Source: an uncultured Alphaproteobacteria bacterium
GTDB lineage: Bacteria; Pseudomonadota; Alphaproteobacteria; GCA-2731375
NCBI GenBank assembly: GCA_913049615.1
Contig: CAJWZI010000098.1
Location: 1-6,389, forward strand
DNA: 6,389 bases
Reading direction: 5' to 3'
Shown here: positions 1 to 6,188 of the stretch, in pieces
Layout of the letters: each line of letters opens with the position of its first letter
How positions within the stretch are numbered: the first letter of the stretch is position 1
The notes under the pieces: generated by a model
Databases searched by the model: none
Told to the model about the DNA's origin: nothing
What the model saw: only the letters and a program-made list of their open reading frames with translations
Position numbers and translations under genes: made by a program

Positions 1-347
1 TGTCGGGCAGTGCCTTCAGTACAGTCTTGGTGGTCAAGTCCGAAGATTTAACCGTCGAGGGGACACTGAAACTATGGGAGCGGGCGACCGATACTGGTCG
101 GCGTAGTCATGCGTATTTTTGCCCTGATTGCGGCAACAGAATTTATCACCAAGACCCTGATAAACCCCACATCATACGCATTCGTTCCGGATCACTGGAT
201 CAGCCCGAAATTCCAGAACCTCGAATTCATGTGTTTGCTGAACGAACGCAATCTTGGCTTCAATTTGCGGAAGGCGCTATCAAATACGAGAGGCAACCGC
301 TTGATGCAGAAGAACTTTATGAAACGTTGACCGACATAGCTGAGTAA
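1..347 (+). CDS. GFA-family protein (glutathione-dependent formaldehyde-activating enzyme/CENP-V fold), 5' truncated
   Basis: The reading frame is open from base 3 to the TAA at 345-347, giving 114 visible residues; the N-terminus lies outside the window. The first visible residues read SGSAFSTVLVV, the hydrophobic strand that follows the first zinc cysteines in GFA proteins. Further on comes FCPDCGNRIYH (visible C40 and C43), the family's C-terminal zinc CxxC. The spacing between these motifs, the Gly-rich turn before the CxxC and the tail length suit a GFA protein of about 130-140 residues. The family is named after a glutathione-dependent formaldehyde-activating enzyme, but most members have no proven reaction, so only the fold is assigned. 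A TTG at 27 could be read as a start but would cut the fold, so the gene most likely begins upstream. The next genes lie on the same strand close behind, and one of them is a thiol-redox protein, so a role in thiol metabolism is possible but inferred. Confidence 0.85.
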   Translation, partial: SGSAFSTVLVVKSEDLTVEGTLKLWERATDTGRRSHAYFCPDCGNRIYHQDPDKPHIIRIRSGSLDQPEIPEPRIHVFAERTQSWLQFAEGAIKYERQPLDAEELYETLTDIAE

Positions 348-358
348 ACACAGTAAAA

Positions 359-555
359 TTGGGCTCACCAACAATCAAAGACTTCCCCACCGATCCGATT
401 GAGGTGGAGTGTAAGAAGTGTGGCCGCCAGGGGCGTTATCGGAAGGCGGCGTTGATTAAAAAATACGGCAGTGACATCGTATTGCCGAATCTGTATTAGG
501 CGACTGTGACGAAGCAAATTCTTTGATTTGAATACGATATAGGAGGGATACATGA
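359..555 (+). pseudogene. Small CxxC zinc-ribbon-like protein, apparently frameshifted
   Basis: From a TTG at 359 the frame encodes 46 residues beginning MGSPTIKDFPTDP. It then shows ECKKCGRQGRYRKAALI, a CxxC followed by a basic helix, and ends at LPNLY with TAG at 497-499. The CxxCGRxGRY pattern followed by an L-I-x-x-Y-G-x-D-x-x-LP stretch resembles a family of short uncharacterised proteins that I associate with alphaproteobacteria; those run longer and carry further cysteines. The missing part seems to continue in another frame (496-552: GDCDEANSLI, then TGA at 529-531, then IRYRRDT). That frame ends in a TGA at 553-555, which overlaps the next gene's ATG as ATGA. A decayed or mis-sequenced gene once coupled to its downstream neighbour explains this best. 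No clear Shine-Dalgarno precedes the TTG. Function is unknown; the CxxC suggests metal binding. A genuinely short 46-residue protein is the alternative. Confidence 0.5.
541..546 (+). promoter_or_regulatory. Strong ribosome binding site that fixes the ATG at 552
   Basis: AGGAGG lies five bases before the ATG at 552-554 and matches the anti-Shine-Dalgarno core fully. It argues that translation is meant to start at 552 even though an in-frame TGA follows twelve codons later. The internal ATG at 672 has no comparable site. Confidence 0.85.
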
Positions 556-1313
556 ACGAAGCAATCAAGGTATTTTGGCAGCCTCATTGAACGAGCTGTC
601 TCAGGGTAAAAGACTACCTGTCGGTCCGTGGGATCGAATTCGATTCGATTAACGTACTGGAAGACAGCGGGATGGAGGAGTTGCGCCGGATCGGCGCACG
701 TACTGTGCCCGTCGTTTCCAGGGGTAAAAAATTTGTATTTGCCCAAGTCATAAGGGATGTCGTCGATTTCCTGGAATTGGAGGATGATACCACCCCAGAA
801 TTGTCGCCAGCACAACTGGCCCAACGCTATGACTATATTTTGCAAACAGCAATCCGCCTGATCAGACAAATGCCTGACGATCGTCTACACGATGAACTGC
901 CGAACCGTCCACGCTCGTGGCGTGTGTTGATGCATCACGTTTTCCAAATTCCGATAGCATTTCTCAATATGGAGGAGAAGGGTGAGACATTGACCTATGA
1001 GACTATGATTGCGCCTCCACCGGAAAATTTGATTACTAGTGCCGATATCGCCGACTTCGGCGAGGTGGTGAGAAAACGTTTTAGTTCTTGGTGGAATGAG
1101 GCCGAAGGCAAGGATTTTGCCAGCGACGTACCGACTTATTTTGGGTCAACCACACGGCATGAGATGCTGGAGCGAACCGTATGGCATTCGACGCAGCATG
1201 TTCGCCAGGTCCACTCCCTTTTAGAACAGGCCGGTGTAATCCCAGATCAACCACTGACCACGGAGGACATTCAAGGTCTGCCGTTGACCGAGAAGGTTTG
1301 GGACGAAACTTAG
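552..1313 (+). CDS. Glutaredoxin-like/DinB fusion protein, candidate selenoprotein with in-frame UGA (UxxC)
   Basis: Read from ATG 552 through the TGA at 588-590 to TAG at 1311-1313, the product has 253 residues. Residues 1-75 form a glutaredoxin/thioredoxin-like domain: strand IKVFWQPH, redox motif U13-T-S-C16, helix LRVKDYL, strand FDSINV, and T51-V52-P53, the cis-proline signature beside the active site. Residues about 85-225 are a DinB-like four-helix domain with candidate metal ligands H128 or H129, H212 and H216 (WHSTQH). As I recall, homologues read WQPGCTSCLR at the active site, so the TGA falls on the first catalytic cysteine. A hairpin follows directly, as expected of a bacterial SECIS element. 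The frame is otherwise unbroken and codes for conserved motifs on both sides of the TGA. The likely role is thiol-disulfide or S-transfer chemistry in the cytosol, since DinB relatives include thiol-dependent transferases; the substrate is unknown. Alternatives: a nonsense mutation, a sequencing error, or a DinB-only product from ATG 672, which would split the thioredoxin fold. Confidence 0.75.
591..629 (+). promoter_or_regulatory. Putative bacterial SECIS hairpin immediately after the in-frame UGA
   Basis: An RNA hairpin can be drawn starting at the base after UGA 588-590. The upper stem is 602-605 (CAGG) with 617-620 (CCUG). The loop is 606-616 and begins with G606; two extra pairs, U607-A616 and A608-U615, would leave G606 bulged. 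The lower stem pairs 591-593 with 627-629, plus C596-G624 and G598-C622, with wobbles 595-625 and 597-623 and an internal loop at 599-601/621. The apical loop begins 16 bases after the last base of the UGA. A G in the first loop positions at about this distance is what is known of bacterial SECIS elements bound by SelB. The fold was done by eye, without an energy calculation. Confidence 0.55.
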
Positions 1314-4092: not shown

Positions 4093-5328
4093 TCACGCAA
4101 TAAAATCTTCTAAGTTTAGGGACTTTGAATTTGATGTTAATCGGTAGACCCCATCGTCCGTGACCACGACAGTGTCCTCGCATAAGAAGCCCATGACGCC
4201 TTGGATGTAGTATCCAACCTCAATGGAAAATGTCATACCAGCCTCGAGACCACCGTCCACTGCTGGCATCAGAAAGGCTGAAGATTCCGGGTCGGCCAGG
4301 GTTATGATCGGTGGGTCATAAACCGAGACGCCAATACCATGGCCACAATGGAAGCGTTCGAAATTCTCTAAACCAAGTTTTCGGCCTGGTGCCATGGCCG
4401 CTTTGTAGACATCACGCACATCGACACCAGGACGCATAAGAGCCACCGCATCGTCGACGCCTTGGGCCATGGCTTCCCAGGTCCGGCTCTGCTCTCTGTT
4501 TGGCGTGCCCAAAACCACGGCACGGGCATTATCAGCATGGTAATATTCATAGGTGCAGCCGATATCATAGCGGATTAAGTCACCGGCCTTGATAATTTTA
4601 TCGGAGGCGAGCGCATGTGGCTGCGACGTTCGACTGCCGCTCCCAAGAATGCAAAATGTCGAGCGTCCGCCTTCGGCTGTGACGACACTGTGATACCTGT
4701 CGATCACCTCCCGTTCCGTCGTACCGGGCCTAAGCTCTCGAAGAGCGGATTTTATGGCTATCTCGGTAATGGCCGAGGCACGGGTCAGCCTTTCGATCTC
4801 GTCAGGGGTTTTGACCATGCGCACTTCCCACCAGATCGCATTGGCATAGACAATATCCACGTTAGGTAGTCGTTGTTGTAGTTCCCACCAAAACATGGGT
4901 GAGATACCGCTTTCGTCTATTCCGATACGGGCTTTTGTTAGTCCGCGGCTCTCAATCGCGGCGACAAGGCCATCCAATGCCCGGCCAACATGATGTGCAC
5001 GCTCTGATAGTTCCTTGGCGGCGCGCCCAATGTCGTCCATGGCGTCCATTTGAGCCGGCCCACGGGGGAATGGACTGAACAGGTAAATGTCATCTACCCA
5101 GACATCGCCATCGACGATGGCGTCTAATTCGAGACTCGGGGCGATCAATGAAGCGTCGGGTGCGTGTCCCGGCGAGAACAGAGAGTAGAGTTGGAAACCC
5201 TTGTTCAACCAGTGGGTTACGCATTCATAATTGGTTGCATAGAGAACGTTGTCCGGTGAAGCCGCCACGATGGCATCCAGACCATGGCGCTGCATGACTA
5301 ATTCGGCACGTGCTCGGTTAAACAGCAT
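4093..5328 (-). CDS. M24-family metallohydrolase (Xaa-Pro aminopeptidase/creatinase-like)
   Basis: The product has 411 residues, typical of two-domain M24 proteins. Residues 1-165 form the creatinase-like N-terminal domain (LVMQRHGLDAIVAASPDNVLYATNY). Residues about 175-400 form the pita-bread catalytic domain, with the dinuclear metal ligands D255 (RYDIG), D266 (HADNAR), H330 (CGHGIGV), E370 (FSIEVGYY) and E384 (LCEDTVVV). H238 in QPHAL matches the conserved catalytic-side histidine. All five ligands are intact, so an active enzyme cleaving a C-N bond in a peptide, creatine-like or other amide substrate is expected. There is no signal peptide, so it is cytosolic. ATG 5326-5328 is chosen because GGGGGAG lies several bases upstream and the family alignment starts there; the frame is open 30 codons further but reads as non-family sequence. 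The protein is not DddP (DMSP lyase), since the extra Asp of that subfamily is Gly257 here. The substrate is unknown. Confidence 0.9.
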   Translation of the reverse strand: MLFNRARAELVMQRHGLDAIVAASPDNVLYATNYECVTHWLNKGFQLYSLFSPGHAPDASLIAPSLELDAIVDGDVWVDDIYLFSPFPRGPAQMDAMDDIGRAAKELSERAHHVGRALDGLVAAIESRGLTKARIGIDESGISPMFWWELQQRLPNVDIVYANAIWWEVRMVKTPDEIERLTRASAITEIAIKSALRELRPGTTEREVIDRYHSVVTAEGGRSTFCILGSGSRTSQPHALASDKIIKAGDLIRYDIGCTYEYYHADNARAVVLGTPNREQSRTWEAMAQGVDDAVALMRPGVDVRDVYKAAMAPGRKLGLENFERFHCGHGIGVSVYDPPIITLADPESSAFLMPAVDGGLEAGMTFSIEVGYYIQGVMGFLCEDTVVVTDDGVYRLTSNSKSLNLEDFIA

Positions 5329-5618: not shown

Positions 5619-6188
5619 TTAGTACTTCCAACTCCAGTTCAAATCTTTCTTGATCAGATTGTACCTTGCTTGCTCGGATAAAACCTCTGTAGAACCGTAG
5701 TAGAAATCCATGAAAGCCCAGCCACCCAGAAATACGGACAGTACGAGCGTTCCCAGTAGGGTGGCAACGCGAGCCATATAGGCAAAATTGTGCAAGGCAC
5801 TCCCTTTGATTGTTCGTAGTTGTTGTTCTACCCTGCGGGCATCATCCTGCGATCGCTCCCAGGTTAGGTAGGCCTCTAAGCGGTCCTTATGCACTCCCGC
5901 GTTTTTGTCGGGTGTGCCGTGGGGCGAATGATCAGGAAACAGCAGGCCCTTCAAATATGCCAAAATTATGAAGGCAATAAAGGACCCGCAGCCAACCGAC
6001 AAAACTATATAGAAAGCCGTGTTAGCAAATGGTCCGCCAAAGGGTACTGTCCAAATGGCCAGCGGGGTGATGACGACGATAAGACCCAATAGGGTCATGA
6101 CACCTTCGTACAATCCACGGGCCATTTGGTTGGCGATGGTTAGTGGTTCATTAGTCCGTCTCAACCTGGAATCTCCATGCTCTAACAT
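5619..6188 (-). CDS. Membrane protein of unknown function, three predicted helices
   Basis: The product has 189 residues and I do not recognise it. Predicted helices by hydrophobicity are residues 26-48 (GVMTLLGLIVVITPLAIWTV region), 55-79 (FYIVLSVGCGSFIAFIILAYL region) and 136-160 (VATLLGTLVLSVFLGGWAFM region). Between helices 2 and 3 lies a charged stretch (about 95-130: KDRLEAYLTWERSQDDARRVEQQL), likely helical or coiled-coil and on one side of the membrane. The tail is rich in aromatic and charged residues (LIKKDLNWSWKY). ATG 6186-6188 has no clear Shine-Dalgarno. M22 (MARGLYEG) is a possible later start that would still keep all helices. Traces of two tightly packed upstream genes on the same strand suggest it is the last gene of an operon entering from the right. 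Coding is credible from length and hydrophobic pattern; function is open. Confidence 0.65.
   Translation of the reverse strand: MLEHGDSRLRRTNEPLTIANQMARGLYEGVMTLLGLIVVITPLAIWTVPFGGPFANTAFYIVLSVGCGSFIAFIILAYLKGLLFPDHSPHGTPDKNAGVHKDRLEAYLTWERSQDDARRVEQQLRTIKGSALHNFAYMARVATLLGTLVLSVFLGGWAFMDFYYGSTEVLSEQARYNLIKKDLNWSWKY

Follow-up and report, generated by a model that had tools for sequence, protein, structure and literature searches.

What does a bacterial gene encode when an in-frame TGA falls on the first active-site position of its glutaredoxin-like domain? This question is raised by a gene at positions 552–1313 of the forward strand of a 6,389-nucleotide stretch of DNA from an uncultured alphaproteobacterium (the whole stretch is referred to here as the window). 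The original prediction of a glutaredoxin/DinB selenoprotein held that ATG 552 is preceded by a full AGGAGG site and that codon 13 is TGA (588–590), and the frame bears this out: the AGGAGG Shine-Dalgarno sequence (541–546, forward strand) lies 5 nt ahead of the start codon, with AGGAGG-GATAC-ATG spanning 541–554, and decoding of the TGA gives 253 residues with a single TGA at codon 13, no other stop, and a TAG at 1311–1313. The full-length product would be 29.3 kDa, computed with cysteine in place of selenocysteine. TGA is the ordinary terminator of two window genes, encoding an SDR (2747–2749) and an M24 peptidase (4093–4095), indicating that the standard code is in use and ruling out a general reassignment of TGA across the window.

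The sequence on both sides of the TGA was expected to code for a single thioredoxin-fold domain. Consistent with this, the Pfam Glutaredoxin model (PF00462) matched residues 5–62, straight across the TGA, over its cut-off (E 1.9e-10). We assigned residues 1–77 (552–782, forward strand) to the glutaredoxin domain, within which U13-T-S-C16 is the active-site motif; C16 (597–599), its second position, is invariant in 48 of 48 aligned rows, and P53 (708–710) presumably occupies the usual cis-Pro position of glutaredoxins. Residues 83–236 (798–1259, forward strand) form a DinB/YfiT domain, assigned from the fold of a structure model and a Pfam DinB_2 match (residues 99–220) that, at 21.1 bits, is below the cut-off of 24.8. 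The model (pLDDT 95.2, pTM 0.91) has a glutaredoxin fold and a DinB fold, and comparison shows the modelled protein to have this two-domain architecture. The predicted metal triad of the DinB domain, H129 (936–938) and His212-x-x-x-His216 (1185–1199), is invariant in 48/48 rows, as is the glutaredoxin active site. GST chains took the top ranks in a Foldseek search, with rmsd mostly above 4–13; we rejected kinship with GSTs on the basis of these high values and read the matches as a common thioredoxin fold plus helices.

We read codon 13 from the DNA of homologues. Matches at E <= 1e-20 were found in 32 of 385 genomes from the class of genome G001 and in 10 of 17 from the order of G002; in the class of G002, 20 of 369 genomes matched at E <= 1e-3, with full-length matches in G002 and G122 only. 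The TGA-form set consists of 27 rows, from the window and 26 genomes (19 from the G001 class, seven from the G002 order), and the Cys-only set of 17 genomes (13 from the G001 class, three from the G002 order, plus G122); with four plasmid records, these 17 genomes account for the 21 distinct rows among 23 Cys rows in total. Codon 13 was TGA in 27/27 TGA-form rows and TGC or TGT in 21/21 distinct Cys rows, such that Cys homologues do place cysteine opposite the TGA, and selenocysteine is the predicted residue 13. The recurrence of the same TGA in 26 relatives, with identity to the window protein as low as 43.5%, agrees with the earlier argument that a nonsense mutation would hit this codon only by chance. 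The distinct Cys rows are more distant than the TGA rows; one protein, P0006, is a close Cys relative that is 77% identical to the window protein and has C-T-S-C. One of the 26 TGA-form genomes, G712, carries both forms, with a TGA copy and a Cys copy on contigs C24 and C25 (L128, L082). There was no carrier besides G001 itself in the G001 order (1/27 genomes), no relative among the viral contigs searched, and a further 398 genomes sampled from the phylum contained two carriers, both already known; as no more than six candidates were scored per genome, that sample may have missed some.

The frame upstream of the TGA appears to be maintained. Random lesions elsewhere in the frame of relatives, which the original prediction took as telling against a selenoprotein, were looked for, and none was found in the 27 TGA rows: no further in-frame stop precedes the natural end of the gene in any of them. 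The second TGA noted in L129 (codon 252 of 253) and in G382 (codon 252) is the gene's own end rather than a lesion. Pairwise comparison of TGA rows gave a pN/pS of 0.36 for codons 2–12, ahead of the TGA, indicating that the upstream part is under selection at the protein level.

The alignment of the 27 TGA rows pointed to a feature absent from the original prediction: a putative bacterial SECIS hairpin at window positions 620–638 (forward strand; columns 33–51 counted from the UGA). The outermost positions, 620 and 638, carry G and A in the window and do not pair, which restricts the window hairpin to 621–637. The spacing from UGA to hairpin is 36–37 nt in 27/27 rows, at the far end of the permitted range. 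Across these rows 96.8% of cells are paired, and three of the seven pairs have changed on both sides (10 cells). None of 500 shuffles, and no slid version, equalled the covariation score, while the observed values were reached in 7/500 shuffles for pairs changed on both sides and in 10/500 for further pair types; the hairpin was picked on the same rows used for counting, and the pair shuffles take no account of kinship. By contrast, the same columns in the 21 Cys rows were 37.4% paired, at the shuffled level, with no covariation signal. By itself, hairpin covariation is not proof of a SECIS element. Synonymous codon choice is, on the aligned sequences, frozen exactly at the hairpin in the TGA rows, with a same-codon frequency of 0.92 at codons 24–30 (n=7) versus 0.48 at codons 45–252 (n=163; Mann-Whitney p 1.2e-5); the Cys rows gave 0.52 (n=4 codons) versus 0.45 (n=120; p 0.25). 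We also applied the bSECIS model as given in the available text of a 2026 review (PMC13188914), which specifies a loop of 3–9 nt with G in the first two positions, a stem of 4–16 bp, a spacing of 16–37 nt and an MFE <= -7.5. All constraints were satisfied in 24 of 27 TGA rows versus one of 21 Cys rows, and the three remaining TGA rows (L118, L125, L127) failed on energy alone. The window hairpin passes, with an MFE of -7.5 that is exactly at the limit. Folded alone, the window stretch is ordinary (z -0.79; 35/200 shuffles fold as well), indicating that the hairpin signal comes only from comparison, and an Rfam scan of the window returned nothing at the gathering threshold. We regard the predicted SECIS hairpin as the strongest evidence added for the selenoprotein reading.

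We next counted the selenocysteine machinery in the relatives' genomes (26 TGA-form and 17 Cys-form; the window's own genome is not among them). Genes for tRNA-Sec, SelB, SelA and SelD were found in 24, 25, 24 and 26 of the 26 TGA-form genomes, respectively, versus three of the 17 Cys-form genomes in each case, the same three each time (G465, G466 and G604). The association with form gave Fisher p values of ~1e-7 to 1e-6 for tRNA-Sec, SelB and SelA, with kinship ignored. Control genomes at the same thresholds had tRNA-Sec in 2/14, SelB in 2/14, SelA in 1/14 and SelD in 2/14. The misses among the TGA-form genomes, whose completeness is unstated, were tRNA-Sec, SelA and SelB in G420, tRNA-Sec in G772, and SelA in G001; selB of G001 begins at base 143 of its contig, so selA may lie past the contig end. 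ARAGORN called the best tRNA-Sec matches of G001 and G002 SeC(tca). On contig C48 of G462, the TGA-form gene (65037–65789) lies ~7 kb from tRNA-Sec (72592–72685), which selB and selA adjoin (locus L121, 57000–74000). Separately, one of two selD matches in each of G688, G595 and G765 contains an in-frame TGA, and these SelD proteins are probably selenoproteins themselves.

The presence of an in-frame TGA in a glutaredoxin/DinB frame is confirmed, and the reading of this gene as encoding a selenoprotein is strongly supported, because TGA/Cys pairing, hairpin covariation, frozen synonymous sites and co-occurrence with the selenocysteine machinery all point to it. From these comparisons, we consider it very probable that the UGA at codon 13 is decoded as selenocysteine. 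Two explanations without selenium have to be weighed against this. The database annotation of just a 213-aa product is what would be expected of a pseudogene, in which a nonsense mutation had created the TGA and translation from ATG 672 yielded the DinB part alone; however, a TGA shared by all 27 rows without any other lesion, purifying selection upstream of it, and a hairpin that TGA rows have but Cys rows lack leave this explanation with a very small probability. Alternatively, near-cognate decoding or a changed code could place an ordinary residue, such as Trp or Cys, at the UGA. An open frame on both sides of the TGA and the existence of a close Cys relative, P0006, speak for this reading; against it, TGA ends two window genes, the residue aligned with the TGA is Cys rather than Trp in every distinct Cys row, the selenocysteine machinery goes with the TGA form, and the hairpin conforms to the bSECIS model. 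We therefore judge decoding as an ordinary residue to be very improbable, and take selenocysteine to be the predicted residue in what follows.

Gene callers that are unable to cross a TGA yield starts right after the motif, and database copies of this protein have the corresponding gap. A homology search of protein records with the window protein gave 1286 matches, and a search with L122, a distant member of the TGA form, gave 2184; all figures here are from the 120 matches listed for each. Among those listed, 119 of 120 in the window search begin at or after codon 17, with P0006 alone reaching codon 13, and 0 of 120 in the L122 search reach codon 13. Codon 17 is the first residue after U-x-x-C, and 18 of the matches listed in each search start there, a clustering that fits gene callers unable to cross the TGA. 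The expectation that standard gene callers miss the N-terminal domain thus holds for 239 of the 240 matches listed, which begin after the TGA position, and so does the more specific expectation of a start at 672: close database copies are 213-aa proteins that begin MEELRRIG at the equivalent of ATG 672–674. Truncated proteins named Reyranella soli and Vineibacter terrae begin directly after the motif, and these named species may be available carriers.

How would such a protein work? SelB and Sec-tRNA(Sec) would read the hairpin 36–37 nt past the UGA, inserting selenocysteine at codon 13 and generating U13-T-S-C16 in a glutaredoxin domain joined to DinB/YfiT. The DinB domain would bind a metal via H129, H212 and H216, and this metal site could activate a low-molecular-weight thiol for reaction with an electrophile; in these proteobacteria the thiol would probably be glutathione. 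The U13 selenol might then reduce or release a mixed disulfide or thioether, or recycle the thiol, with C16 resolving, a role we take to be as in glutaredoxins. The pairing of a selenol site with a metal-dependent thiol-transferase site is, in our view, the likeliest role suggested by the modelled folds, from which we infer it because there is no widely shared neighbour. We propose only tentatively that the protein is a one-chain, selenium-dependent redox thiol transferase with a metal-bound DinB site and a selenol glutaredoxin site. A true selenoprotein could instead act solely as a glutaredoxin-type disulfide reductase, with DinB as a noncatalytic scaffold or substrate-binding part. In keeping with that simpler activity, the glutaredoxin active site and the His triad are equally invariant, and a sequence search of solved structures ranks glutaredoxins and other thioredoxin-fold proteins at the top, with a DinB chain only at E 0.021. 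On the other hand, H129, H212 and H216 are invariant in all 48 rows, and the triad resembles the three His residues of the metal-dependent Bst enzymes described in PMC5815605; we consider the reductase-only role rather unlikely.

Selenocysteine in a glutaredoxin is itself known; what appears to be new is its fusion with DinB. A Sec-containing glutaredoxin (PF00462, U-x-x-C) is in Table 1 of PMC13188914 and likewise combines a glutaredoxin fold, selenocysteine at the first active-site position and a second Cys; that protein has no DinB partner, whereas the window protein has one. The review covers 119 prokaryotic selenoprotein families and subfamilies, none with DinB in Table 1, and its text does not contain the word "DinB". 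The premise that selenocysteine replaces a redox Cys in thioredoxin-fold proteins of marine and environmental bacteria fits what the available portion of the same review describes. We found no report of a Sec-glutaredoxin/DinB fusion in a search of the literature by titles and abstract beginnings, mostly outside subscription journals. Other selenoprotein fusions are described in the GOS survey, which also tallies sequences labelled "Grx" and "Grx-like", and ten glutaredoxins are recorded in the Sargasso Sea survey; some of these glutaredoxin reads could belong to the Sec-glutaredoxin/DinB family.

Weak sequence likeness suggests that the glutaredoxin part probably has its nearest selenoprotein relatives in UXX-star and HUGP/GUXX-star, but the DinB part is missing from their models (NF041114, NF041211, NF041212, NF047338, NF045501). 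NF041212 was matched by 46 of 54 family members at E <= 0.001 (best 4.1e-12) and NF045501 by 15. The window protein and P0006 were under every NCBIfam cut-off, with the window protein scoring 25 versus 66 bits for NF041212 and 11.8 versus 325 for NF045501. GOS_C (NF045500) was absent both from the NCBIfam families found at E <= 10 for these two proteins and from the 17 families found over the 54 members, noting that HMMER filters drop weak matches. On the DinB side, members of the DinB/YfiT thiol-transferase-like family (bacillithiol transferases BstA-H, mycothiol S-transferase 8f5v and mycothiol-dependent maleylpyruvate isomerase 2nsf) have no N-terminal Sec-glutaredoxin, unlike the window protein. 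In Cys homologues encoded by plasmids of Variovorax, Roseomonas, Caballeronia and Rhizobium, the same frame runs over both parts with C-x-x-C; these differ in having Cys at the selenocysteine position, 31–43% identity and no comparable hairpin, and are annotated as "glutaredoxin domain-containing", "DinB family" or "hypothetical" proteins.

A quick tree of 50 proteins required at least four changes between selenocysteine and Cys, two of them forced by well-supported branches. In this tree P0006, with Cys, forms a supported set of three with the window protein and L110, and this grouping suggests a recent switch between selenocysteine and Cys at P0006. We also clustered ORFs from 40 genome regions, three plasmid regions and the window. 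The two widest clusters were the gene itself (18/18 members) and ORFs antisense to it (14/15 members), and the next spanned five loci. There was no widely shared neighbour in these regions, a weak result since the ORF calls include false antisense ORFs and may mask real genes. A promoter and terminator scan around the gene was at the shuffled level. Upstream of the gene, the window contains the 3' part of a GFA (glutathione-dependent formaldehyde-activating) family gene (3–347, forward strand) and a frame without a visible start (362–499, forward strand) that reads ...DFPTDPIEVECKKCGRQGRYRKAALIKKYGSDIVLPNLY* and resembles a small protein's zinc-ribbon end; this frame may be a gene remnant. On the reverse strand, 5622–6188 encodes a predicted protein of 189 aa with no Pfam match at E <= 0.001.

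With this family the bacterial selenoproteome gains a well-supported member, one in which selenocysteine occurs together with the DinB thiol-transferase fold, a combination we did not meet in the literature and families searched. The family also exposes a systematic annotation error, in that the part holding the catalytic position is absent from 239 of the 240 homologues among the matches listed. If the proposed role is correct, the protein would be the proteobacterial, selenocysteine-using equivalent of a glutathione transferase, with another helical domain as partner, and a thiol transferase would have escaped annotation because its records lack the N-terminal start.
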